Under the pieces are notes generated by a model. The model saw only the letters and a list, made by a program, of their open reading frames with translations. It was not told where the DNA came from and made no database searches. Made by a program: the position numbers and the translations under genes. Shown here piece after piece: positions 1,207 through 30,445 of a stretch of DNA of 35,613 bases. Source of the DNA: Parabacteroides sp. (GTDB lineage Bacteria; Bacteroidota; Bacteroidia; Bacteroidales; Tannerellaceae); NCBI GenBank assembly GCA_021204335.1, contig JAJPZM010000094.1, forward strand, positions 1 to 35,613, given 5' to 3'. Positions within the stretch are counted from its first letter, which is position 1. The number at the start of each line of letters is the position of its first letter.

Positions 1207-1489
1207 ATGAATAAGAGAGAAATGCTAGAAGCTATTGCCGGTAAAACCGAACTGGATATTAAAATTGTAAAAAAGGTAATAGATGCTTGCGAAGAAATAT
1301 TAGTAGACAGGATAAAACAGGATGACAAAGTAATCATACATAATTTCGGGCATTATGAACCCCATACACGTGCAGAACGAATGGGACGTAACCCGCAAAC
1401 CGGAGAACCGGCAATAATCCCCCCGTATTAAAACAATTAAATTTAAGCCGGGAAAAGAAACTTATCGTAAATTGAATGCCAAGAAATGA
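1207..1489 (+). pseudogene. HU-family DNA-binding protein, frameshifted
   Basis: The first frame (1207-1431, 74 residues) starts like HU/IHF (NKREMLEAIAGKTEL) and contains the beta-arm signature GRNPQTGEP, then stops early after IIPPY. The next frame continues with the missing HU tail (RIKTIKFKPGKETYRKLNAKK) to a TGA at 1487-1489. A run of six C at 1419-1424 sits exactly at the break, and five C would restore a normal HU of about 93 residues. HU proteins bend and compact DNA as dimers; the lost tail forms the final beta-strand and helix, so the short product is probably non-functional. The TPR regulator fragment starts only 13 bases after the restored stop, suggesting co-transcription. A TAAATTTG box at 1092-1099 could be its promoter. 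Confidence 0.85.
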
Positions 1490-1502
1490 TAAAGCATTAG
1501 AG

Positions 1503-2111
1503 ATGAAGCACTTCACTCTAACGCTTATTTTATATCTTATATTACCTGTCTGTATCAAAGCACAGAATACACCAGACAGCCTATTTACCCTTGAGTACAT
1601 CCAAAGCATCAGTTTGACGGATCCGCACAGAGCGTTAGACTTGCTGAATGAAGCGGAAAAAGATAAGCGTATTCCCGAATTTTTGATTAATAACCTTCGA
1701 AGCCTGGTCTACCACAATGGACTAGGCCAATATCGGGTTGCCCTGGACTATGCCCTGAAAGCCTATCAAAGCGATTCAATCCAAAAGAGCCCTGAACGAG
1801 CCTTGAGTTTAATTGATATAATAGCCAGTGATCATATGTCGATCGGTAACTACATCGATTGTATCCGCTATTCCAACATCGGCGTTAAATTGGCACAACA
1901 AATTGAAGACAAAAGTTTAGAGGCTGGCATGTGGCAATACATCGGATTAGCCAAACAGGAAATGGGATTGAAGGCAGAGGCGGAGACCTATTTTATCCAG
2001 GCAATCAAGACTCAAAAAGAGGTTGCAAAAAAACTCACAAGACTGGAAAGAGATAGACGACCTGATCTATTCATACGGGACATTAATCATGTTTTACATG
2101 GAAAATCGTAA
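1503..2111 (+). pseudogene. TPR-AraC membrane regulator, N-terminal fragment
   Basis: The ORF track starts at 1476, but ATG 1503 gives a clean signal peptide (MKHFTLTLILYLILP, ending CIKAQ), so I prefer it. The body is helical and TPR-like (EYIQSISLTDPHRALDLLNEA, AYQSDSIQKSPERA). At an A7 run (2027-2033) the TPR pattern jumps to the +1 frame, and this frame ends with 26 nonsense residues. With six A the protein would continue EVAKNSQDWKEID into the next ORF. The complete gene would be a periplasmic TPR sensor, one transmembrane helix and a cytoplasmic AraC-type DNA-binding domain, a layout common in Bacteroidetes one-component regulators. Confidence 0.8.
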
Positions 2112-2631
2112 ACACAAGGAAGCAATCGCCCTGTTGCCTGATTATGACAAGCTGATGGTTAAACTTGGTACATGCCCGAATTTGCCTGAAGGAGTATGCG
2201 ATATGCGCTACAGTAGCCTCTATGCAGCCTTTGCCAATATTTATGCCTTAGACGGCAAACTTGGGAAAGCTAAACAATATTACGAAAAATATCTTCAAAC
2301 GAATTATTCCTCTACCTCCGAAGGAAGAGGCATGCGCATTGATTATTTACTGAATACCGGACAATATCAGGAAGCTCTCCTTTATATAAAGAAAGACAAA
2401 CAAGATCTGATTGCTGCCGGAGATACGATGAGCAATGACTACACGCATTATACCCTGAGACATGAGGCGGAAGCCTATATCGGACTAAAGAATTATCAGG
2501 CTGCCGCCGAGAACTACAAAAAGATGTTTATTCTTTCCGATAGCCTGAATAGTAACGAAAAACAAAATACGGCACTCGAACTGGCAACTCTTTATGAAAC
2601 AAATGAAAAGGATTTGCAGATTAAAGAATAG
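2023..2631 (+). pseudogene. TPR-AraC membrane regulator, middle fragment
   Basis: Direct continuation of the fragment before it: TPR-type helices (KHKEAIALLPDYDKL, LGKAKQYYEKYLQ, KNYQAAAENYKKM) without a start of its own; the TTG at 2023 is only where the frame opens. It ends at an in-frame TAG (2629-2631). Reading through the TAG continues at once with RIQLHQTRII and a membrane helix, so this is a nonsense codon inside one gene (a CAG to TAG change would explain it), not a natural gene end. Confidence 0.78.
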
Positions 2632-2688
2632 CGTATCCAGCTCCACCAAACGCGCATCATACTGATTGCTGCCACAGGGATATTTATT

Positions 2689-4065
2689 TTGTCGCTTATT
2701 ATCATCTGGCTGATCGTACACAACCTGCGTGTAAGCCGTAGGAAAAACCGTATCATGGCAGGACAGATCGATGAATTGCTGGCTTCCCACGACAGCCTAC
2801 TCAAAGCTAAAGAAGAAATACGAACCCTAAGCACGCCCTCGTTGGAAAAGAATAATATCCCGCAGGAAGAACCTCCTCTGACTGATGCAACAGAAACTGT
2901 TATGCAGGCTTTATTCGAGGAACTCGATACATTGGTTACCAAAGAACAACTATTTCTTAATCTGGATATAAACCGCGATATGTTAACCAAACGTATGCAC
3001 ATCCAGAAAAACGTATTTGCACAGATCATCCAACTTTATGGGCATACCAACTTCAATGGATATATTAATAATAAGCGGCTGGAATACTCTATCCGATTGC
3101 TAAAGGATTATCACAATTATACAATACAGGCTGTTGCCAACGATTCCGGTTTCAATAATGTTCGAACTTACTATCGTACATTCCGGGAAAAGTATGGAAT
3201 GAGTCCGGCCGAATATAGAGACACCCAAATAAATAACAACAAAAAAAGAACCATGCATAAACAATCTGTTATCCTGATAACCGGCGCCTCTTCCGGTTTT
3301 GGAAAAACGACTGCGACCTATTTAATCCGTAAAGGACATATTGTATATGGCACCAGCCGAAAGCCTGTGGATGACGCAGATGGTACACGGATGCTGATAA
3401 TGGATGTTACTCAACCGCAGTCTATCCGACAGGCCGTAGAGCAAATCATCGTCGAACAAGGGCGCATCGATATCCTTATCAATAACGCCGGATTGGGGAT
3501 CAGCGGAGCACTCGAGTTGGCTACCGATAAAGAAATCAAACAGCAAATGGATACCAACTTTATGGGGGTAGTAAATATGTGTAAAGCTGTTTTACCGGAA
3601 ATGCGAAAAGCCCGAAAAGGACTTATCATTAACATTAGTTCGATAGGCGGATTGATTGCGGTACCTTTTCAGGGATATTACTCTGCATCCAAATTTGCAG
3701 TCGAGGGTTTCAGCGAAGCGCTATTACACGAAGTCCGTCCGTTCGGTATCCAGGTTTGCCTGGTAGAACCAGGAGACTTCCGTACTAATTTCACAGCAAA
3801 CCGCAACGTATCGGAAGCAACAATTACAGATCCGGACTATCGGGATAACTTTATCCGGACTATGACAGCCATCGAAATGATGGAAAACGGAGGTGCACAT
3901 CCAGATAAGCTGGCTCGCACAATCGGTAAACTTATTAAAAAGAAGCGCCTCCCTTTCCGTACTAAAACAGGTCCTGTCGAACAGGTTCTCTTTACTCATC
4001 TCCGGCAATGGTTACCAGAGCATCTTGTATTTTGGATAGTACGAAAAGGGTATGCGCTAAAATAG
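2689..4065 (+). CDS. AraC-domain fragment in one frame with a short-chain dehydrogenase
   Basis: This 458-residue frame has two parts. The first carries the rest of the membrane helix (SLIIIWLIVHNL), a charged probable coiled coil (GQIDELLASHDSLLKAKEE) and an AraC/XylS helix-turn-helix ending in the family signature (DSGFNNVRTYYRTFREKYGM, then SPAEYR). The second part, from ATG 3253, is a complete short-chain dehydrogenase. No stop codon separates them: the linker is DTQINNNKKRT. Either a true fusion exists, or an indel erased the regulator's stop (TAA triplets occur in another frame at about 3230). Because the upstream part of the regulator is broken twice, the AraC domain is probably not made, and the dehydrogenase likely initiates on its own at 3253. 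Confidence 0.75.
   Translation: MSLIIIWLIVHNLRVSRRKNRIMAGQIDELLASHDSLLKAKEEIRTLSTPSLEKNNIPQEEPPLTDATETVMQALFEELDTLVTKEQLFLNLDINRDMLTKRMHIQKNVFAQIIQLYGHTNFNGYINNKRLEYSIRLLKDYHNYTIQAVANDSGFNNVRTYYRTFREKYGMSPAEYRDTQINNNKKRTMHKQSVILITGASSGFGKTTATYLIRKGHIVYGTSRKPVDDADGTRMLIMDVTQPQSIRQAVEQIIVEQGRIDILINNAGLGISGALELATDKEIKQQMDTNFMGVVNMCKAVLPEMRKARKGLIINISSIGGLIAVPFQGYYSASKFAVEGFSEALLHEVRPFGIQVCLVEPGDFRTNFTANRNVSEATITDPDYRDNFIRTMTAIEMMENGGAHPDKLARTIGKLIKKKRLPFRTKTGPVEQVLFTHLRQWLPEHLVFWIVRKGYALK
3253..4065 (+). CDS. Short-chain dehydrogenase/reductase (SDR)
   Basis: About 270 residues with the classical SDR landmarks: the Rossmann glycine motif TGASSGFG at residues 10-17, NNAG, an active-site Ser in NISSIGG, and YSASK with Tyr143 and Lys147. 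It should be a cytoplasmic NAD(P)-dependent oxidoreductase; the substrate is unknown. The start is set at the internal ATG because family members begin just before the glycine motif, although the frame is open upstream into the AraC domain. It converges with the fimbrillin-like gene, whose end is 15 bases away. Confidence 0.85.
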   Translation: MHKQSVILITGASSGFGKTTATYLIRKGHIVYGTSRKPVDDADGTRMLIMDVTQPQSIRQAVEQIIVEQGRIDILINNAGLGISGALELATDKEIKQQMDTNFMGVVNMCKAVLPEMRKARKGLIINISSIGGLIAVPFQGYYSASKFAVEGFSEALLHEVRPFGIQVCLVEPGDFRTNFTANRNVSEATITDPDYRDNFIRTMTAIEMMENGGAHPDKLARTIGKLIKKKRLPFRTKTGPVEQVLFTHLRQWLPEHLVFWIVRKGYALK

Positions 4066-17347: not shown

Positions 17348-18724
17348 ATGAAAAAACAGTTATTACTAGTAGTTGCATCGACAATCCTGTGCGTTTCCTG
17401 CGCACAAAAGAAAGTAACAAACCAGCCTGCCCCATTCGCTCCCGGAGAGTTCAAGGAATGGGCGCAAACGCCACCGATGGGGTGGAACAGTTGGGATTGT
17501 TACGGCCCCACCGTAGAAGAACATGAAGTAAAAGCGAACGCCGATTATATGGCAGACAAGCTGAAAGATTACGGCTGGGAATATGTGGTAGTAGATATCC
17601 GCTGGTTTGTAGAAAACGACAAAGCCGGCGGTTACAACCAGACCGATCCCCGCTACGTCCTGGACGAATACGGACGCTATCAGCCGGCAACCAACCGCTT
17701 CCCTTCCGCCAAAGACGGCAAAGGGTTTAAGGAACTGGCGGATTATGTACATAATAAAGGACTGAAATTCGGTATCCATATTATGCGTGGTATCCCGAAA
17801 GAAGCGGTTGAAAAAAAACTGCCGGTAAAAGGTACCGGGGAGATCACTGCCGACCAGATCTATTCACCCGAACTGCAATGCGAATGGCTGCGGGATAATT
17901 ATACGATCGTTACCGATAAGCCGGGAGCACAGGAATATTACAATTCCATCTTCGAGCTTTATGCTTCATGGGGCGTCGACTTTATCAAAATAGACGACCT
18001 GTCGCGCCCTTACTACCAGGGAGAGATCGAACTGATCCGCCAGGCCATCGACCACTGCGGGCGCCCGATCGTATTGAGCACCTCACCCGGAGAAACACTC
18101 GTACAGAATGCCGAACATGTCAGAAGCCATGCCAATATGTGGCGTATGGTGGACGACGTCTGGGATACATGGCCGCACATCACCCATCTGTTCGACATCG
18201 CCCAGAAATGGTATCCGTATATTGCATCGGGCACCTGGCCCGATTGCGATATGATCCCGCTGGGACGCATCTCCATCCGGGGCGAACGGGGTGAAGACCG
18301 CATGACGCGCCTCAGCCACGACGAACAATATACATTAATGAACCTGTTCTGCATCTTCCGCTCCCCGCTGATGTTCGGCGGAGACCTGCCGAGCAACGAC
18401 GAATTTACTCTATCGCTGCTGACCAATAAAGAGGTACTGAAAATGCATCGGGAAGGAACCGGCGTCCGCCAATTGTTCCAGCAGGACGGCAAGGCGGTCA
18501 TCACGTCAAGAAATGAACAGACAGGAGACGTATATCTGGCGTTGTTCAACCTGAACGATAAAGGCGACAGCCTAATCGAAGTTCCGCTGCAAGAATTGGG
18601 AATAGACGGCGAATGCCAGGTAACGGAAATGTGGAAAGGCCAGCCGGTCGCACAAAAGGGTAAGACCATAAGCACCCGCCTGACACCGCATGCTTCCGCA
18701 TTATATAAGGTATCAATTAAATAA
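17348..18724 (+). CDS. GH27 alpha-galactosidase / beta-L-arabinopyranosidase, lipoprotein
   Basis: A 458-residue lipoprotein (lipobox LCVSC). GH27 marks: TPPMGWNSWDCYGP at the barrel start, a YVVVDIRWF strand, KFGIHIMRGIP, the nucleophile strand DFIKIDD (about residues 210-216), and the acid/base region MWRMVDDVWDTW (about residues 262-273). A short C-terminal beta-sandwich follows (GDVYLALFNLNDKGDS). GH27 enzymes mainly remove terminal alpha-galactose; some members remove beta-L-arabinopyranose from arabinogalactans, which would suit the GH51 and GH43-GH16 genes nearby. Length is normal and the frame intact. Confidence 0.92.
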   Translation: MKKQLLLVVASTILCVSCAQKKVTNQPAPFAPGEFKEWAQTPPMGWNSWDCYGPTVEEHEVKANADYMADKLKDYGWEYVVVDIRWFVENDKAGGYNQTDPRYVLDEYGRYQPATNRFPSAKDGKGFKELADYVHNKGLKFGIHIMRGIPKEAVEKKLPVKGTGEITADQIYSPELQCEWLRDNYTIVTDKPGAQEYYNSIFELYASWGVDFIKIDDLSRPYYQGEIELIRQAIDHCGRPIVLSTSPGETLVQNAEHVRSHANMWRMVDDVWDTWPHITHLFDIAQKWYPYIASGTWPDCDMIPLGRISIRGERGEDRMTRLSHDEQYTLMNLFCIFRSPLMFGGDLPSNDEFTLSLLTNKEVLKMHREGTGVRQLFQQDGKAVITSRNEQTGDVYLALFNLNDKGDSLIEVPLQELGIDGECQVTEMWKGQPVAQKGKTISTRLTPHASALYKVSIK

Positions 18725-18737
18725 TAATCTATTTTTA

Positions 18738-18793
18738 AGACAAAAGAACATATTTAAGATTATTCTTTCTTTTGTTCTTATGTTCTTTTGTCT
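18738..18793 (+). repeat. 14-bp inverted repeat between GH27 and GH51
   Basis: AGACAAAAGAACAT and its exact complement ATGTTCTTTTGTCT, 28 bases apart; an inner copy TTCTTTTGTTCTT adds internal repetition. It lies between the GH27 stop and the GH51 start. It could be a terminator or attenuator of GH27, or a leader structure of GH51. The ORF track's longer GH51 start (18772) falls inside it, another reason to prefer 18820. Confidence 0.6.
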
Positions 18794-18819
18794 CAAATAA
18801 AATCTTTTGTATTTATACA

Positions 18820-21303
18820 ATGAAAAGTATCAAACGAATCGCAGCCGCCGCACTGATTCTATCGGCATGCTTTGTCGTCCCTGCCCGATCGCAGGTAAAG
18901 GGATTGGCTAGCCAGCCGGATTCGGCTTACCTGTTCTCTTATGCAACGCAGAAGGATCATAACCACAACGGTTTACATTTCGCCTGGAGTATCGACCAGG
19001 AAAACTGGCATCGCATCGGGCCGGAACATAGTTTCCTCCGCAGCGATTACGGAAGATGGGGAACCGAGAAAAGAATGCTCTCCCCCTACCTCACCCGCAC
19101 GCCCGACGGCATCTGGCACTGTTACTGGCAACTGAACGAACAACACAAAACGTTCGCCCACTCCGCTTCGACCGACTTGGTCTATTGGGGCAGGCAATCA
19201 TACGACGTGCCGACAATCCCCATCGACCCACAACACGATCGCTGCTCGATCGTCCTCTACGACCAGCCGGAGACAGGTGTCGTTTATAAGGTTGCCTGGA
19301 AAGAGGTCGACAACCTGCTCGCCGCCTGCCAGATGGCCGACTATAAAAACAAACTCTATGACGAAACAACCAAGGAAGACCCCGAACGCTTCGCCAACTT
19401 GAAACCCTTCGAAACGAAAGTCATTGTGAACGGACAGCCGAAGAAGCCGATCTGTGACTTGTTGGTCGGAATCTTTTTCGAAGACATCAACTATGCGGCC
19501 GACGGCGGACTGTATGCTGAGCTGATTCAGAACCGCGACTTCGAATATGCCCTCAGCGACAAGGAAGGCAACGATCCCGACTGGAACAGCCGCAAGGCCT
19601 GGAGCCTGAAAGGCAACACGACCACCTTCGAGATCGACTCGGTGCAGCCCATCCATCTCAACAACCCGCATTATGCCGTACTGAAAACGGACAAGCAGGG
19701 AGCCGCCCTCGTCAACGAAGGCTTCGACGGCATCGCACTCAAATCGGGAGACAAATATAAACTCTCGCTCTTTGCCCGCAGCCTGGAAGGGAAGAACGGC
19801 AAACTGCAAGTGCGCCTGACCAGCAAAGACGGCCGCGTTTACGCCGAAGGCACCACCCGCGGAATATCCGGCGACTGGAAACAACAAACCATCCAGCTAA
19901 CCGCCAAAGGAGACGTAGCCGATGCCCAACTGGAAATCTTCCCTTTGACAGCCGGCACGATTGCCCTGGATATGATCTCCCTTTTCCCCGAAAAGACATT
20001 CAAGAACCGTCCGAACGGCTTGCGTGCCGACCTGGCACAAACGCTTGCCGACATTCATCCTCGTTTCGTCCGCTTCCCCGGCGGTTGCGTGGCGCATGGC
20101 GACGGTTTGAATAATATGTATCGCTGGAAAAACACCATCGGCCCGCTCGAAGCCCGCAAACCGCAACGCAATCTTTGGGGCTATCATCAGACAGCCGGAC
20201 TGGGCTATTTCGAATACTTCCAGTTCTGCGAAGATATCGGAGCCGAGCCTGTTCCGGTCGTTGCCGCCGGCGTGCCTTGCCAGAACTCGGCCTGCAACCA
20301 TCCGAACGGCGGCGGCCAGCAAGGCGGCATCCCGATGTGCGAGATGAACGATTACGTACAGGAAATACTCGACCTGATCGAATATGCCAACGGCGATGTA
20401 AAAACCGAATGGGGACGGAAGCGTGCCGAAGCCGGCCATCCGAAGCCTTTCAACCTGAAATACATCGGCATCGGCAACGAAGACCTAATCACCGACGTTT
20501 TTGAAGAACGCTTCACGATGCTCTTTAACGCCGTCAGGGAAAAGCACCCGGAAATAACCGTTATCGGAACAGTAGGCCCTTATTCCGAAGGCACCGATTA
20601 CGAAGAAGGCTGGGAGCTTGCCAACAAACTAAATGTCCCAATGGTCGACGAACATTACTACCAGAAACCGGGCTGGTTTATCCACAATCAGGATTATTAC
20701 GACAGGTACGACCGCTCGAAATCGAAAGTCTATCTGGGTGAATATGCCGCCCACCTGCCAGGCCGCCCGAACAATATCGAAACAGCCCTGGCGGAAGCCC
20801 TCTACATGACCTCGCTCGAACGCAACGGCGATGTCGTTCACATGAGTTCGTATGCTCCCCTGCTCGCCAAAGAGGGACATACGCAGTGGAGCCCGGATCT
20901 GATCTACTTCAACAACACAGAGGTGAAACCGACCGTTGGCTATTACGTGCAACAACTCTACGGGCAGCATGCCGGCGACGAATATCTGGCCAGCCGAATC
21001 ATCATCCCGGAAAACAACGACGCCGTTCAAAAACGGATTGCCGCATCCGTTGTACGCGACAGCCGCACAAACGACCTGATTGTAAAACTGGTAAACCTGC
21101 TCCCCGTCTCCACCCAAACAAATGTGGTATTGGAAGGCATCCCGAATATCGACCAGCAAGCCACCTCACTTACCCTGAGCGGGAAGCCGGACGACAAGCA
21201 GGCACGCCCCGTAAGCAATACGATCCAAGTATCGAATGATTTTGATGTCAACCTGCCGGCTTATTCGTTTACGGTAATACGGATAAAGATTAGAGATATT
21301 TGA
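18820..21303 (+). CDS. GH51 alpha-L-arabinofuranosidase with an N-terminal propeller-like domain
   Basis: About 827 residues from ATG 18820 (signal peptide MKSIKRIAAAALILSACF, ending ARSQ). The core is GH51: HPRFVRFPGGCVAHGDGLNN, acid/base Glu in KYIGIGNEDL (about residue 552), nucleophile Glu in MVDEHYY (about residue 610), and a C-terminal beta-sandwich (alpha-L-AF_C type). Ahead of it, residues 25-150 (SYATQKDHNHNGLHFAWSID, SPYLTRTPDGIWHCYWQLN) resemble blades of a GH43-like beta-propeller but are too few for a full domain. A beta-sandwich module (residues 240-390) joins the two. It should release alpha-L-arabinofuranose from arabinan, arabinoxylan or arabinogalactan. Confidence 0.92.
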   Translation: MKSIKRIAAAALILSACFVVPARSQVKGLASQPDSAYLFSYATQKDHNHNGLHFAWSIDQENWHRIGPEHSFLRSDYGRWGTEKRMLSPYLTRTPDGIWHCYWQLNEQHKTFAHSASTDLVYWGRQSYDVPTIPIDPQHDRCSIVLYDQPETGVVYKVAWKEVDNLLAACQMADYKNKLYDETTKEDPERFANLKPFETKVIVNGQPKKPICDLLVGIFFEDINYAADGGLYAELIQNRDFEYALSDKEGNDPDWNSRKAWSLKGNTTTFEIDSVQPIHLNNPHYAVLKTDKQGAALVNEGFDGIALKSGDKYKLSLFARSLEGKNGKLQVRLTSKDGRVYAEGTTRGISGDWKQQTIQLTAKGDVADAQLEIFPLTAGTIALDMISLFPEKTFKNRPNGLRADLAQTLADIHPRFVRFPGGCVAHGDGLNNMYRWKNTIGPLEARKPQRNLWGYHQTAGLGYFEYFQFCEDIGAEPVPVVAAGVPCQNSACNHPNGGGQQGGIPMCEMNDYVQEILDLIEYANGDVKTEWGRKRAEAGHPKPFNLKYIGIGNEDLITDVFEERFTMLFNAVREKHPEITVIGTVGPYSEGTDYEEGWELANKLNVPMVDEHYYQKPGWFIHNQDYYDRYDRSKSKVYLGEYAAHLPGRPNNIETALAEALYMTSLERNGDVVHMSSYAPLLAKEGHTQWSPDLIYFNNTEVKPTVGYYVQQLYGQHAGDEYLASRIIIPENNDAVQKRIAASVVRDSRTNDLIVKLVNLLPVSTQTNVVLEGIPNIDQQATSLTLSGKPDDKQARPVSNTIQVSNDFDVNLPAYSFTVIRIKIRDI

Positions 21304-23017: not shown

Positions 23018-24415
23018 TTATTGATAAACCCGCACATAATCGATCTCATATTTCATCGGGAAGGCTTCCGGCTCCGGCTCGCCACCGTTTATTCCCCCGA
23101 TTGCCAGATTTAACAAGAAATAATGAGGCTGATGAAACGGATTTGTATGATTGCCTATCTTCCCGTTTATTGTTTTCGACAAAGGGATTTCATTTAACAA
23201 TTCATCATCCTGGTAAAGACGAATATACTCTTTACTCCAGTCCATCCGCCAGATATGGAAAGCATTCGCCCACGCCTTGTCTTTTGCCAGGAAATGACTG
23301 AAAGGGATCTTTTTGCTGTTCCAAATCGCATCATCAGGCGTATCATTGCCCCAGGCTGCGTTAGCCAGGATATGGGGAATCCCACCGATCCGGTAATATT
23401 CCATAATATCGATCTCGCCGTTGGAAGGCCATGGCATCTCCCGGCCTAATGTCCAGATCGCCGGCCAGGCTCCCCCGGCAACGGGAATCCGGGCGCGAAC
23501 TTCAAAACATCCATACAGAAACTCTTTTTTACCGGCTGTATTGATCGATGAAGAGGTATATTCGGCCTGCCTGCGTTCTTCACGCCAATCTTTGCTATCG
23601 GCTTTATATCGGGGATTTACCTTTTGTTCTTTACGTGCCTCGATTACCAAGACTCCGTTCCGGCAATAGGCATTATCGGGTTGATACCATTGATCTTCTT
23701 TATTTCTTACAAATCCATTCTCAAATCCCCACTTGGACGGATCCGGTTTGCCGGTATCATTAAGCTCATCACTCCAAACCAATTTTAAGCTTGCATTTTC
23801 AGTTTCTTTCGCTGACTTATCGAAAACATCCGGCGTCCATGAATCCATCCATTTCAATACAGGCAACCCGTTCTCGAACAGGATAGGAAGCCAGATGTAA
23901 CGGGCATCGGACGGATGCTTCGGCGTCCAGCGATCTGCCATAAAGACAAAGGAGTCTTTTTTTCCGGCGATGGGGAAGATAAATGTACTTTGCGAATGGA
24001 AAGTAAGGGCGGCATCGACTCCGTGGCAAGGGTTCAGATGCTGTTTCCAGGGGCCCCAGATGGAAGGGGCGGAAAAGAGGCGGGCTTCATTCGGATCCCA
24101 ACCGGTACAACCGGAAGTGATCATAAAATAGGTGCCGTCTTTCTTAAAGATGGCAGATGCTTCGTTGTGCCCGCCGGGGAAAAGACGGATATATCGTCCG
24201 GTGTGACTCTGGTAGTCGTCGGTCAACTCGGCTATCTGTAATGTCAGGTTTTCTTCCGACGAATAGATATGATAGGCTTTTCCGTCGTCATCCACATAGA
24301 TGGTCATATCGCACGACATCTGTCCACCCAGGAAGTCCAGGCGGACGAACAGGCCTTCGTTAACGGCTGTCAGCCATTCGGGCGACCACCATTCCTTAAA
24401 ATTGCCGGCCTTCAC
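23018..24415 (-). CDS. GH43-GH16 fusion enzyme: end of GH43 plus GH16 domain
   Basis: A 465-residue frame. Residues 1 to about 190 complete the GH43 propeller started in the upstream frame (MSCDMTIYVDDDGKAYHIYSS, GGHNEASAIFKKDGTYFMI). Then a GH16 domain begins at about residue 215 (LVWSDELNDTGKPDPSKWGF) with the catalytic pattern E334-x-D336-x-x-E339 in GEIDIMEYY, preceded by GGAWPAIWTLG and ending YEIDYVRVYQ. GH16 enzymes are endo-acting on beta-1,3/1,4 galactans or glucans. Start residue VKAGNFKEWW is only the frame opening. It is the last gene of the PUL operon. GH43 and GH16 in one chain would pair exo and endo cleavage. Confidence 0.88.
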   Translation of the reverse strand: MKAGNFKEWWSPEWLTAVNEGLFVRLDFLGGQMSCDMTIYVDDDGKAYHIYSSEENLTLQIAELTDDYQSHTGRYIRLFPGGHNEASAIFKKDGTYFMITSGCTGWDPNEARLFSAPSIWGPWKQHLNPCHGVDAALTFHSQSTFIFPIAGKKDSFVFMADRWTPKHPSDARYIWLPILFENGLPVLKWMDSWTPDVFDKSAKETENASLKLVWSDELNDTGKPDPSKWGFENGFVRNKEDQWYQPDNAYCRNGVLVIEARKEQKVNPRYKADSKDWREERRQAEYTSSSINTAGKKEFLYGCFEVRARIPVAGGAWPAIWTLGREMPWPSNGEIDIMEYYRIGGIPHILANAAWGNDTPDDAIWNSKKIPFSHFLAKDKAWANAFHIWRMDWSKEYIRLYQDDELLNEIPLSKTINGKIGNHTNPFHQPHYFLLNLAIGGINGGEPEPEAFPMKYEIDYVRVYQ

Positions 24416-24942
24416 GCTGAGGGATATTCTTCGGGCATATTTTCCGGCCAGAAACCGGCACAGGGACGGTAGGAATGGACAAAACGGTAAGGGCCTGTCA
24501 CCTTATCGCTCACGGCTACACCCACACGAGCTACGGCATATCCTTTCCCTTTCAGTTCCAGATGGAACCATATGACGTATTTGCCGGTCTTCTTATTATA
24601 GACCACTTTCGGACGCTCCAATATGCAACCGCTTTCAATGTCGCTATAAGAACCATCCGGCATGACAGGCATTGCGATTCCTTCATTCTTCCAATGCACC
24701 AGATCGTTGGAAGAATAGCAGGTGACGCCATCCAGCGCGACACTGGTCGTATCGCTTTTAAACTCGCCAAGCCAATAATAGGTACCGTCGGCATACAGTA
24801 TGCCGCCACCATGGGCATTGACATGGATGCCTTTATCGTCAGGCCATATTTCACCGGGACGTATCTCGCCGACCGGTGTTTGGGAATAACCGCACAAAGC
24901 AGCTAAACCCAGACAACAGGTAAATATAATTTTTCTCATCAT
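24412..24942 (-). CDS. GH43-GH16 fusion enzyme: start of the GH43 domain
   Basis: A 176-residue frame with a signal peptide (MMRKIIFTCCLGLAALCGYSQ). It contains the first half of a GH43 propeller: INAHGG-like HVNAHGGGILYADGTYYWLGE, then LVHWKNEGIAMPV, ERPKVVYNKKTGKYVIWFH. This style is that of GH43 exo-beta-1,3-galactanases (subfamily 24-like), by recall. The frame fails after ENMPEEYPSA; one added base near the CCC at 24423-24425 (minus) would join it to the 465-residue frame, giving about 640 residues. It follows susD after a 116-base gap that holds a nested hairpin. Confidence 0.85.
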   Translation of the reverse strand: MMRKIIFTCCLGLAALCGYSQTPVGEIRPGEIWPDDKGIHVNAHGGGILYADGTYYWLGEFKSDTTSVALDGVTCYSSNDLVHWKNEGIAMPVMPDGSYSDIESGCILERPKVVYNKKTGKYVIWFHLELKGKGYAVARVGVAVSDKVTGPYRFVHSYRPCAGFWPENMPEEYPSA

Positions 24943-25058: not shown

Positions 25059-25517
25059 TTATTTTTCTGCCGGTTGATCGGCTGTGATCGGCCAGTAAGG
25101 ATTCTGGTAGATGGGGGAATCGGTTACGGTAGCACCGTCGGGGGCGGTTACCTGGAACTGTTTCACCATGATCGGTTGCAGATAGTGTGCCATCTTCCAT
25201 CTCAGACCATCGTAGCCGGCCTGTGTGGAGATACGTTCAAACGGACGAAGGTATTCGCTGCGTGACTCGGACGAGACGTTGGATCTATCGGAACCGTCGG
25301 CAACGAGGTCGGTGTACCAGCTCTCCATCGGCGTATTCCAAAGATGCATTCCTTCGGGATGATAGGGTTCCGTCATCATCTGATCCATGGCACGCCAGCG
25401 ACACAGGTCCATGTAACGTAATCCTTCCGCCATCAACTCGCTGCGGCGTTCGCGGCGGATATTGTAAAGTGTAGGGTCTACCAGACGGCCGGCCGAATAA
25501 GCGCCCCAGTCGTTTTT
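25059..25517 (-). CDS. SusD-family protein, C-terminal fragment
   Basis: This frame continues SusD after the break: NDWGAYSAGRLVDPTLYNIR, RERRSELMAEGLRYMDLCRW, then SPIYQNPYWPITADQPAEK. The RRxEL...G.R..DL.RW segment is the best-conserved SusD C-terminal motif. The ORF track shows only the part after ATG 25436. Confidence 0.88.
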   Translation of the reverse strand, partial: KNDWGAYSAGRLVDPTLYNIRRERRSELMAEGLRYMDLCRWRAMDQMMTEPYHPEGMHLWNTPMESWYTDLVADGSDRSNVSSESRSEYLRPFERISTQAGYDGLRWKMAHYLQPIMVKQFQVTAPDGATVTDSPIYQNPYWPITADQPAEK

Positions 25518-27118
25518 GCTTCCTCCGACATGTTGGTAGCAGAAATCGTCTTGTCGATATCATCGCTCACATTTGCACGGCGGCGAAGCGTTTGCCAGTA
25601 AGTGCGAGCCGTCCCGTCGAGCGATCCGTTCTTTTCGTAGCTTGCTTCCATATAGTTGAGCAATGCTTCGGCGGCGCGGAAACAAACGGCTGCGGTGTAA
25701 CCTCCGCCATTGGCATAATGTTTGCGGTTGAACGATCCGCCCTTACGCAGGGCATAGCCGGTGGCATATCCGCGCTCGTCGCCCAAGGTGATCAATGGAT
25801 AGGGTTCTTCAGCGACAACATCCGTACCTTCCGCGTTATCGAGTTCAAAAAGGATGTTCTTCTGTCCCGGCTCTTTAAGGAAAACAGACAGGCGGCTGTC
25901 GCGGTTGGCACGCACGTCGGCGATGCTCTTGTCTCCTTTGTAGTAGCCGTCGCCATCGACATACGATCCGTGTGCATAGACGGGCGTTCCGTCCGCCATC
26001 AGGAAGTTGTTGACCAATCCGCGGGTCAGGCCGATACGGTAGTTACCGCGGCTGGCAGCCGCATTGACGTTGTGTGTCACCAGCCCACGCGCATACTGAC
26101 GCCATAAGAGTACTTCTTTTACATCCGAAAGATCTTCCTGGGCAAACATGTGGAGGAATGGATTGGCAGGATCGGTATCCAACTGTGGCACTACACCGGT
26201 GTTGGTCGTCAGGCTGGCAGCATAAACGTCGCCCACTTGCTTGGCAGCATCCATTGCCTGGGTAAGGAAATAATCGATCTCGCTGTCGATGCTGCCCGAT
26301 TCGTAGGCGAAACCGGCATTATAGTCTTTCGTGGCGCCCGGCCATTCCGGACCACCCGGCACGAAAGCCGTCTCCTTGAAATATTTCAACCAGGTTCCTT
26401 CAAACAAGGCGACGCGCGATTTCAACAGCAGGGCGACATCTTTGTTGATACGCGTAGTCGCCATATCTTCATCACCAAGCAGAGTTATTGCCTCGTCGAA
26501 ATCGGAAAGGATAAATCGGGCTACTTCGTTGCGCGGACTACGCTTGCTAGCCTCGGTCAGGGTTGCCAAGTCATCGGGCAATGTCTTGTCGATGATGGGG
26601 AAATCGCCAAAGAGTTGTAGCTTCTTGAAATATTCCAGACCGCGAAGGAAATACATTTCACCGATATAGTGCTTGATCTCTCCGAGATCGCCACCGATGG
26701 TGTTTTCCGAACCGTCGAGATTGCCGCCGAATTTAGGCAAGACCTGCTCGAAGAAGAAGTTGCAACGGTAGATCATTTCAAAGTTCCACTTCTTATTTTC
26801 TGTCTGGTCTACTTTCCAGCGGTCGGCTGTGTAGCGGTCGTCGGCCGTTACACCGATCTGGTTGTCGGTGCCGGCATCTTCGCCAAAGATACCGTAGCTG
26901 TACTGATTGATATGCGACGGAAGGATGGCTTTCTCCTTATCCGTTTCGCTATAGAGCCTGTTCGCATAATTCTGCAACTGCGAAGCATCGGTGAAATAAT
27001 TGTCGGGCGATACCTGCGATTTGGGTTCCTGGTCGAGGTAATCTTCGCACGAAGTGAAACCTCCCGCCAGCGTTAGTGCCAGCATGGAGCTGACAATGAT
27101 TCTATGATTTGTTTTCAT
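25478..27118 (-). CDS. susD: SusD/RagB glycan-binding lipoprotein, frameshifted near its C-terminus
   Basis: A 546-residue frame with a lipobox (GGFTSCEDYLDQEPKS) and the standard SusD N-terminus (PDNYFTDASQLQNYANRLY). TPR-like helices include EMYFLRGLEYFKKLQLFGDFPIID; later come NRKHYANGG and RAAEALLNYMEASYE. SusD proteins sit on the cell surface over SusC and bind the oligosaccharide. After NMSEEAK the frame stops 10 codons on. A run of five A (25513-25517, minus) would need six to join NMSEEAK with NDWGAYSAGR; the restored protein is about 686 residues. It follows susC with a 21-base gap, the usual arrangement. It lies between susC and the GH43-GH16 gene. Confidence 0.93.
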   Translation of the reverse strand: MKTNHRIIVSSMLALTLAGGFTSCEDYLDQEPKSQVSPDNYFTDASQLQNYANRLYSETDKEKAILPSHINQYSYGIFGEDAGTDNQIGVTADDRYTADRWKVDQTENKKWNFEMIYRCNFFFEQVLPKFGGNLDGSENTIGGDLGEIKHYIGEMYFLRGLEYFKKLQLFGDFPIIDKTLPDDLATLTEASKRSPRNEVARFILSDFDEAITLLGDEDMATTRINKDVALLLKSRVALFEGTWLKYFKETAFVPGGPEWPGATKDYNAGFAYESGSIDSEIDYFLTQAMDAAKQVGDVYAASLTTNTGVVPQLDTDPANPFLHMFAQEDLSDVKEVLLWRQYARGLVTHNVNAAASRGNYRIGLTRGLVNNFLMADGTPVYAHGSYVDGDGYYKGDKSIADVRANRDSRLSVFLKEPGQKNILFELDNAEGTDVVAEEPYPLITLGDERGYATGYALRKGGSFNRKHYANGGGYTAAVCFRAAEALLNYMEASYEKNGSLDGTARTYWQTLRRRANVSDDIDKTISATNMSEEAKTTGALIRPAVW

Positions 27119-27139: not shown

Positions 27140-30100
27140 TTATAAAGTAAGACTAAGACCGAACGACCAGGTTCTTGCCAACGGATAAGCGTTACCACCG
27201 TCCTTAATCATAGCGTTGGCACTCGCGCTGTTATTACCGCCGTCGATAGTTTCCGGATCGAACAGTTTGGTAAGGCCGGTGCCGGTCCAGAGGTTTTCGC
27301 CGGATACGAATACGCGGCAACGCTGGAATCCGATCTTCTGCATCCAATTGCCGCGCAAAGTATAGCCCAACTGAAGATTCTTCAAACGGATGTAAGAAGC
27401 ATTTAGCAGGTAACGGGTCTGTTGTTGCTGGTTCTTCGCCGGACCATTGCTATCGTATCCGAAGATAGGACGCGGATAATAAGCATCAAGGTTAGCGGAG
27501 ATCTCATGACCCGGTAGCCCGACCGCTTCGGCGCGGAAGTAATCGCCATGCTCCTTCAGGCCGGTCGACCACCACTGGTCTTGGATTGCTCCCCAGAAGA
27601 TGTTACTGCTTTGCCAGAAGTCGCGTTTCATCACACCCTGGAAGAAGCAACGGAAGTCGAAGCCTTTCCAGTCGGCTGAGAGATCGATACCGAAGAGATA
27701 GCGCGGGGTGTTGTTTCCGATTACCTTCAAGTCGCCATGGTCGTCAACGGTTCCGGCGCCTTCGGTGATACCCGGCTTGCCATCGAGGTCGGCATACATG
27801 ACGTCACCTGCGCCCCATTCCGATCCGAAAGGTTGTCCGCCAACGGCTGCCAGGTGAGCATCCATCTCTTCCTGTGTCTTTGCAATACCTACTGTTTCAT
27901 ATCCCCAGATCTCGCCTATCTCGTGTCCGGCACAATATTCATAGATTGAGTTGGTGACGTTGCTCGGATAGCTTTGGATGATTGTCTTGGCATCGGAAAG
28001 CATCAGCTTGACGCCATAACCCAGACCGTTTTTCAGGCGGTCGTTCCACCCAACGGACAGTTCCCAACCTTGCGTCTTCAAGTCGCAGCTGTTTGTCTTC
28101 GGCGGTGTGATACCTAATACGAGGAGCAGCTCGGGAGCCGGGCCTACCATATTGTCGGTATAGCGGTTGTAATAGTCGAACGAACCGGTCAGGCGGTTGT
28201 TGAAGAGGCCGTAATCGAGACCGATGTTCCAGGTACGCACGGTTTCCCAGGTAAGAGACTCGCTGATCAGATCATTAATCGCTGCAGTGTTGCTCTTAAC
28301 GCCGTCTTGCAACCATACACCGCCGGCCATACTAAGCTCCATTGTGCGGTAGGTAGGATACCATCCGGTTGTGTTCTGGTTGCCCAATTCGCCATACGAT
28401 CCGCGCAGTTTGAAGGTGTTGACCACGTCCACGAGAGGTTCCCAGAAGGCCTCCTGCGCCATGTTCCATCCCAAAGAGAAAGAGGGATAAAGCTCCCAGC
28501 GGTTGCCGCGGCGGAAACGTGAAGTACCGTCATAACGCAGGTTGACTTCGGCAAGATATCTTCCTTTATAATCGTAGTTGATACGTCCGAAGAAGCCGGC
28601 CGTACTCCATTCGTTGCGATAACCACTGGATTCGGGGATTTTATCGACACCCATACCGTCTTGCCCGGAGGTCAGGTCGAATTCGGGTAGGTCTTCGATA
28701 AGCAACCCGTATTTCTTCGCACTGAAAAAAGACTGCTTCATGTTCTCTGCCTGGAAACCGACCATTGCTTTGAAGTTATGGTCGTCCTTTACGGTGAACG
28801 AGTATTCCGAATAGGCATTCAGGTTCAGATAGTTCTCTTTCTTATGATCCTGGTAGAGACTGGAGGTACCTTTCGTATCGACTATATTGCCTGCTACATC
28901 ATGGTTGTAGCAAGGCAGACTGACTTCGCGAACATCCCACGCGCTAGAACTATAGTTAAACTCGACATGGGTACGCCAGTTCTTGATCGGTTCGATGATA
29001 AAGGCTCCCTGATGATATATTTTATCCATCTGCTCGCTACGCTGGCCCCCTTCGGCAAGCGACATGGCAAGGTTATCGGCGTTGTTATTGAAGAAATAGC
29101 CGTTCTCATCATAGATGGGGAGATTCGGCCAGGTCTGACGACCCAGTTTCTCATAGAAGTTATCTCCGAAATAGGTTGGACGGTCTAAGTCGCTACGGAT
29201 GTAACGCAGACTGTAGTTGAAGTCGAGCCATGAAGTAAGTTCGGCATTGACCTTAGCGGAGAGGTTGTAACGTTTCATTCCGTCTTCGCCAAAATTGAGC
29301 AGACCATGCTGGTCGAGATAACCCAGAGAAGCATAGTAGGTTACATTTTCGCTACCGCCGTTGATACTCAGGTTGTGCTCTTGCGAGAAAGAGTCGTTTT
29401 TATAGATCTCGCCGAACCAGTCGGTATTGGCGTAGCCTGTCGTATACGGATCACCGGCGGGTTTACCCCACACACTGCCGTCCGAAGGCAATCCGCCGCG
29501 GTTGCTGCCACCAGCTGCCTGAAAGTCGAGCATCTGTTGCATTACATCGTCCGAAAATATGGCTCCGTCGCCTTTGTTCCTGGCTGCTTCGTTGAAGTAG
29601 TTGGCAAATGTATAGGAGTCCATCATCTCCGGAAGATTGACAGGGCTGCTGACACGGAAGCTGTTGTTGTAGTTAATACTGGCTTTGCCTGCTTTACCTT
29701 TTTTCGTAGTCACCAAGATCACACCGAACGGTGCGCGCGAACCGTAAATAGAAGAGGCAGCGGCATCTTTCAGGACGGAGACGTTTTCGATATCCTGCGG
29801 ATTGATCGTATTAAGGTCTCCTTCCATACCGTCGATCAATACCAGTGGCGAACCGCTCGATCCCTCGCCGATCGTACCTGTACCACGCACGTTGATGTCC
29901 ATGTCTTTGCCAATCTGACCACTATTGGTGCTAATCTGCAATCCCGGGACCAACCCCTGCAACGCCTGTGTCGCATTGGCTACCGGACGCGATTCCAACT
30001 CCTTCGCTGAAGCCAGTCCGACCGCACCGGTCAGGTTCACTTTCTTCTGTGTACCGAAACCGACTACAACCACTTCGTCGAGCTTTTGCAAGTCTTCTTT

Positions 30101-30445
30101 TAATGTAACGTTGAAAACTGTTTGACCTTTTACCGGAACATCCTGCGAGACATATCCGATGTAAGAAACTTCGAGCAGGGCGCCATCGGGAACTTCGAGG
30201 GAGAAATTACCGTCTATATCGGTCACTGCCCCGTTAGTAGTACCTTTTACTACTACGTTTGCACCCATAATAGCCAGTCCGGTCTGATCGACAATCTTAC
30301 CTGTTATCTTCTTACTCTGTTGAGGACTTTGTACATTTTTATCCTGTACCGGCACCCTCATATCCTTGGCATACATAATTCCTAGCGGAGATGCGCTGAG
30401 AAGCGCTACGGCTAAGAACAAACCTTGTGTTTTCATGTAATCCAT
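27140..30445 (-). CDS. susC: SusC/RagA TonB-dependent outer-membrane transporter
   Basis: A complete 1101-residue protein. In order: signal peptide (ATG 30445, or ATG 30436 for MKTQGLFLAVALL), a carboxypeptidase-regulatory-like domain (ITGKIVDQTGLAIMGANVVVKG), the plug domain with SusC signature (LVLIDGMEGDLNTINPQDIE, then VSVLKDAAASSIYGSRA), and a large beta-barrel ending in SFGLSLTL with a terminal hydrophobic residue. It lacks an N-terminal STN domain, so it need not signal to an anti-sigma factor. It imports oligosaccharides with SusD. It is the longest intact gene in the window and shows no lesion, in contrast to its partners. Confidence 0.96.
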   Translation of the reverse strand: MDYMKTQGLFLAVALLSASPLGIMYAKDMRVPVQDKNVQSPQQSKKITGKIVDQTGLAIMGANVVVKGTTNGAVTDIDGNFSLEVPDGALLEVSYIGYVSQDVPVKGQTVFNVTLKEDLQKLDEVVVVGFGTQKKVNLTGAVGLASAKELESRPVANATQALQGLVPGLQISTNSGQIGKDMDINVRGTGTIGEGSSGSPLVLIDGMEGDLNTINPQDIENVSVLKDAAASSIYGSRAPFGVILVTTKKGKAGKASINYNNSFRVSSPVNLPEMMDSYTFANYFNEAARNKGDGAIFSDDVMQQMLDFQAAGGSNRGGLPSDGSVWGKPAGDPYTTGYANTDWFGEIYKNDSFSQEHNLSINGGSENVTYYASLGYLDQHGLLNFGEDGMKRYNLSAKVNAELTSWLDFNYSLRYIRSDLDRPTYFGDNFYEKLGRQTWPNLPIYDENGYFFNNNADNLAMSLAEGGQRSEQMDKIYHQGAFIIEPIKNWRTHVEFNYSSSAWDVREVSLPCYNHDVAGNIVDTKGTSSLYQDHKKENYLNLNAYSEYSFTVKDDHNFKAMVGFQAENMKQSFFSAKKYGLLIEDLPEFDLTSGQDGMGVDKIPESSGYRNEWSTAGFFGRINYDYKGRYLAEVNLRYDGTSRFRRGNRWELYPSFSLGWNMAQEAFWEPLVDVVNTFKLRGSYGELGNQNTTGWYPTYRTMELSMAGGVWLQDGVKSNTAAINDLISESLTWETVRTWNIGLDYGLFNNRLTGSFDYYNRYTDNMVGPAPELLLVLGITPPKTNSCDLKTQGWELSVGWNDRLKNGLGYGVKLMLSDAKTIIQSYPSNVTNSIYEYCAGHEIGEIWGYETVGIAKTQEEMDAHLAAVGGQPFGSEWGAGDVMYADLDGKPGITEGAGTVDDHGDLKVIGNNTPRYLFGIDLSADWKGFDFRCFFQGVMKRDFWQSSNIFWGAIQDQWWSTGLKEHGDYFRAEAVGLPGHEISANLDAYYPRPIFGYDSNGPAKNQQQQTRYLLNASYIRLKNLQLGYTLRGNWMQKIGFQRCRVFVSGENLWTGTGLTKLFDPETIDGGNNSASANAMIKDGGNAYPLARTWSFGLSLTL

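Follow-up and report, generated by a model that had tools for sequence, protein, structure and literature searches.

A split GH43_24-GH16 fusion gene in a probable arabinogalactan utilization locus of Parabacteroides

Introduction

In the enzyme Pc1,3Gal43A, the key residues are E102, D158, E208, and Q263, i.e., a Glu that recognizes C4/O4, an Asp, the acid Glu, and the base Gln (PMC7939473). For BT3683, a GH43 subfamily 24 (GH43_24) exo-beta-1,3-galactanase of Bacteroides thetaiotaomicron (PDB 6EUG/6EUH/6EUI), the published residue numbers are E367, W541, and Q577 (PMC7939473). In a 631-residue GH16-GH43 protein of B. faecis, we found the same three amino acids at positions 367, 541, and 577. 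Judged from the residue numbers alone, BT3683 is very probably itself a fusion of GH16 and GH43_24, and the crystallized part would be its GH43 domain.

GH16 enzymes of the laminarinase-like ExDxxE group act on laminarin, galactan, or mucin glycans (PMC6827312, PMC7419316). Subfamily GH16_3 is large, diverse, and polyspecific (PMC6827312), with no conserved means of selecting galactose over glucose (PMC7419316, PMC6827312), and Viborg et al. place the characterized endo-beta-1,3-galactanases in GH16_10 (PMC6827312). The families involved in arabinogalactan use include GH43, GH51, and GH27 (PMC11036162).

Here, we describe a frameshifted GH43-GH16 gene in a 35,613-nucleotide stretch of Parabacteroides sp. 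(assembly GCA_021204335.1, contig JAJPZM010000094.1), the whole of which is referred to as the window. We estimate at roughly 0.75 the probability that the gene specifies an enzyme of a small polysaccharide utilization locus of Parabacteroides, with a two-domain, exo- plus endo-acting product and type II arabinogalactan as the most likely substrate.

Results

A fusion gene in two reading frames

The gene occupies two minus-strand open reading frames (ORFs) in different frames, 24942-24412 (176 aa) and 24415-23018 (465 aa), which overlap by 4 nt (GTGA); the extent of 23018-24942 given in an earlier note on this DNA is correct. Its features are as follows.

24412-24942, minus strand: 5' fragment; signal peptide without lipobox, then the GH43_24 propeller, N-terminal half, with the Glu of the ERPK motif (C4 hydroxyl recognition)
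23018-24415, minus strand: 3' fragment; C-terminal half of GH43_24 (Asp, acid Glu, and base Gln), then the GH16 domain
23021-23812, minus strand: GH16 domain with catalytic motif EIDIME, the sole GH16 above the Pfam cutoff in this genome
24424-24425, minus strand: break point, at which P. acidifaciens and two other congeners have 4 nt that the window lacks (GAAGAATA----TCCCTCAGC)

Pfam matched GH43 on both fragments and GH16 on the second. With the break read through as XX, one unbroken GH43 aligned across both fragments to the whole length of BT3683 (6eug, E = 3e-141), and the intact P. acidifaciens protein matched in two frames, residues 1 to 174 at 90% identity and residues 174 to 372 at 88%. 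A coding-frame hidden Markov model (HMM) trained on this genome and one congener placed the frame switch at 24416-24423. These data confirm that we are dealing with a GH43-GH16 fusion split by a frameshift, as first proposed, whose rejoined product would be about 641 aa long. The signal peptide without lipobox also fits the "lipid-free secreted chain" of the earlier note; in these bacteria, such a signal may well mean a periplasmic location. Both domains would share one exported chain only if the frame is read through, and the frame as assembled does not give such a chain. With the four-base gap, an ORF for the complete propeller is absent from the assembled copy, which we therefore class as a broken GH43_24 member.

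The GTG start of the second ORF overlaps the stop of the first, a stop-start arrangement known from coupled genes. Conceivably, then, the two ORFs could yield separate proteins by translational coupling, or a single protein by programmed frameshifting. However, the split falls inside one catalytic propeller, with the active-site residues divided between the ORFs, no slippery heptamer is visible at the split, and intact relatives read straight through. All this makes coupling or frameshifting highly improbable. Since the second ORF starts in the middle of the catalytic propeller and lacks a signal peptide, we do not take it as a gene.

The GH43 half belongs with the exo-beta-1,3-galactanases

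The top solved matches of the GH43 part were BT3683, 6euf, Ct1,3Gal43A, and Pc1,3Gal43A. All of its strong named solved relatives are exo-beta-1,3-galactanases or GH43_24 enzymes, and the first GH43 with another stated activity matched only at E = 2.5e-6, so that similarity to characterized subfamily 24 members stands above that to other GH43s. The equivalents of all four key residues of Pc1,3Gal43A are present, the first fragment holding one and the second the remaining three; the E208 column could be identified with confidence from the E208Q mutant chain 7byv, where it contains Q. The protein thus combines the acid Glu, a Gln replacing the usual base Asp, the O4 Glu, and the conserved Asp that mark GH43_24. 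The sequence comparisons support an assignment of the GH43 half as a subfamily 24 exo-beta-1,3-galactanase. This bears out the "exo-beta-1,3-galactanase style" originally attributed to it, the relatives being those of subfamily 24 and not of an unrelated specificity such as xylan. Two invariant GH43 columns are altered in the window, QMSRDM to QMSCDM (R to C) and NEAPA to NEASA (P to S).

A Sus-type locus surrounds the gene

The genes around the fusion are the following.

25059-27118, minus strand: SusD-like gene in two frames (27118-25478 and 25436-25059), the shift lying, in our reading, at an A run
27140-30445, minus strand: SusC/RagA TonB-dependent transporter, intact, 1,101 aa
30568-34706, minus strand: HTCS hybrid two-component regulator in two frames (34706-32532 and 32559-30568), with C8 and A5 runs in the shift region
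17348-18724, plus strand: GH27-like (Melibiase_2) enzyme, adjoining the locus
18772-21303, plus strand: BT_3657-like N-terminal domain plus GH51-type alpha-L-arabinofuranosidase, adjoining the locus

The SusD, SusC, and HTCS genes lie upstream of the fusion gene on the same strand, with the GH27 and BT_3657-like/GH51 genes close by on the opposite one. In the congener G018, an HTCS-SusC-SusD-GH43 series is found together with the same GH51-GH27 pair about 10 kb away. An arabinogalactan locus fits these surroundings and is our best reading of them.

The GH16 half is laminarinase-like

The GH16 domain matches Pfam PF00722 with 47 bits against a cutoff of 22, and its ExDxxE catalytic motif is intact, as EIDIME, in agreement with the intact site reported previously. 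The closest solved structures are 6t2n and laminarinases. Together with a WPA...WPS pattern, they fit GH16_3, and by sequence the domain looks like a member of the laminarinase-like ExDxxE group. Because GH16_3 is diverse and polyspecific, specificity cannot be read from the sequence, and no assay of any GH16 from this clade was found in the accessible literature.

We regard an endo-galactanase role for this half as plausible and likely. Accordingly worded, the exo/endo galactan-degrading enzyme of the earlier note stands for its exo part, with the endo part a plausible assignment within a polyspecific group. The domain might instead cut laminarin or a mucin-type glycan, in which case there would be no exo/endo pair acting on one polymer. 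The closest solved GH16s, 6t2n (of a mucin O-glycanase series) and laminarinases, are in line with this, as is the missing galactose-versus-glucose choice in GH16_3 (PMC7419316, PMC6827312). Against it, GH16 is repeatedly fused to or associated with GH43_24, and we consider a substrate other than beta-1,3-galactan unlikely. As two invariant GH16 columns are altered in the window protein in addition to the two in GH43, activity of the read-through protein is not assured.

The fusion is widespread

Using the second fragment as the query, we fetched 80 genome loci, 44 of which carried the fusion (32 GH43-GH16 and 12 GH16-GH43), a sample that favors fusions because the query held parts of both domains. 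The fusion-bearing loci came from Bacteroidales, Chitinophagaceae, and one planctomycete MAG, and, like the window protein, most of the fusions carry a signal peptide that lacks a lipobox. A fairer figure was obtained from a GH16-only search of 393 Bacteroidales genomes. Strong GH43_24 matches were found in 6 of 19 stretches around close relatives of the GH16 (5 fused and 1 adjacent) and in none of 20 around GH16 genes more distantly related (Fisher P = 0.008); GH16 alone is also common, the other 13 of the 19 stretches being without a strong GH43_24. With the fusion carried in either order by 44 fetched loci, and very probably by BT3683 too, the combination can no longer be called uncommon, as it had been at first.

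In two loci (L061:140-2109 and L046:3-1946), GH43_24 and GH16 occupy two neighboring or overlapping ORFs, perhaps because the genes are split or because the frame is broken there too.

The four-base gap: assembly error or recent deletion

DNA alignment with P. acidifaciens (L042), G018, and a third congener, G021, showed four bases missing between 24424 and 24425, at a site that is not in a homopolymer. The single added base suggested earlier would restore the frame and some 640 residues; however, the three congeners are all 4 nt longer, and a one-base repair would leave the protein one residue short. No same-species copy that could settle the gap was found among 60 relatives.

The gap may be an assembly or sequencing error, with the organism making an intact 640-residue enzyme, and we give this explanation slightly better than even odds. 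The frame-break rate of this genome was determined from 219 kb of its sequence: same-strand frame changes amount to 2.61 per 10 kb of coding sequence in its own contigs compared to 0.83 in G018 (P = 6e-6), an upper estimate of the excess because at least one HMM change is an ordinary operon join (lysS-gpsA). Assembly error is made plausible by this rate of about three times that of the control congener. Splits also affect about 4 of some 20 GH43 genes of the same genome, as well as an M49 peptidase gene and a SusC gene, and the three other frame changes of the window lie at or beside homopolymer runs. The dN/dS ratio, about 0.04 to 0.10 on both sides of the break, i.e., near 0.1 or below in both halves, also favors an error. 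On the other hand, the gap here is of four bases and outside a homopolymer, rpoB and most SusC genes are intact, and at least one checked HMM frame change is the ordinary operon join mentioned above.

The non-homopolymeric four-base gap speaks for a real and recent deletion, which would make the gene a young pseudogene, perhaps with SusD and HTCS also decaying. Further points for this reading are the R-to-C and P-to-S changes at two invariant GH43 positions and a somewhat higher dN on the window branch beyond the break. In the same locus, SusD and HTCS are split as well, whereas the GH27, GH51, and nucleotidyltransferase genes on its flanks are intact. Yet dN/dS is still far below 1, frame breaks are found across the assembly, and in several other sequences of the set the number of altered invariant columns is equal or higher. 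Such a young pseudogene is a serious possibility that falls somewhat short of even odds. A long-standing pseudogene is ruled out by the low dN/dS. On balance, we lean slightly toward an assembly error over a real deletion.

Some other disruptions were observed in passing. Elsewhere in the genome, the M49 peptidase gene (L132:5101-7193) is split across frames, which suggests general frame breaks in the assembly. In the window, a gene for a TPR-containing regulator (1476-4065) has a frame change at about 2033, near an A7 run. In the ORF at 2689-4065, a short-chain dehydrogenase domain shares one frame with an AraC-type HTH; a stop between two genes may have been lost here.

Gain or loss of the GH16 domain

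In the GH43 tree, the window was sister to P. acidifaciens (SH-aLRT 98), and these two with G018 and G021 fell inside a clade made up mostly of GH43-GH16 fusions (97). As the three nearest relatives are GH43 only, the GH16 was either lost in them or gained or regained in the window lineage. In a free, quick GH16 tree, the window did not join the clade formed by the nearest fusions. The topology holding them together has the better likelihood (AU P = 0.705), and since it fits as well or better, an independent GH16 gain is not claimed. That GH16 domains have been swapped on and off GH43_24 in Parabacteroides, the one in the window having been gained independently and the GH43 function then lost by a real deletion, is an unlikely scenario; if it were true, the same exo/endo pair would have been put together and lost repeatedly.

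On the P. acidifaciens contig, the GH43 gene is followed to the contig end by an apparently repeat-rich, noncoding stretch (L042:8588-9776), and the downstream neighborhood is legible no further.

Discussion

In the proposed model, HTCS, SusC, SusD, and the enzyme would form a locus directed most likely at type II arabinogalactan, and the intended product would be an exported two-domain protein. The GH16 half would cut within the same or a closely related beta-1,3-linked chain, supplying new ends, as suggested by the fusion and the genomic association. From the copy as assembled, with four bases missing in GH43, no GH43 domain would be made, and the GH16 fragment would be left without a signal peptide.

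In architecture and probable function, the enzyme belongs to a known, widespread type and does not represent a new system, and the gene is best described as an ordinary one for plant sugar degradation. With it, the widespread exo/endo galactanase architecture gains an example from a gut-type Parabacteroides. Because the two domains recur together in both orders, intact relatives offer an easy test of the idea that GH16s of this clade are endo-beta-1,3-galactanases. The split gene is also a warning that frame breaks of this assembly should not be taken as biology without the reads.

Among described systems, BT3683 has the same catalytic residues as the window protein, whereas its domain order is very probably reversed, with GH16 first, and its gene is intact. 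The order in the window, GH43_24-GH16, is shared by the fusions of B. cellulosilyticus, B. stercorirosoris, Dysgonomonas capnocytophagoides, and others (loci L002 to L031 and L064), which are exported and mostly without lipobox; they differ in being intact, and their Bacteroidales members are about 61 to 69% identical to the 465-residue fragment. As for the GH16 half, the GH16_3 laminarinases and gut O-glycanases (3ILN and 6T2N) have the ExDxxE motif and WPA...WPx pattern seen in the window, but their specificity is for glucan or mucin glycan, and they have no GH43 partner. GH16_10 holds the characterized endo-beta-1,3-galactanases (PMC6827312), whereas the GH16 of the window looks like GH16_3. 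The closest GH43 domains are the GH43_24 domains of P. acidifaciens, G018, and G021 (89, 85, and 80% identity over the matched stretch, respectively). In these, unlike in the window, the GH43 frame is intact and there is no GH16 domain, while G018 and G021 have HTCS-SusC-SusD-GH43 in the same order as the window.
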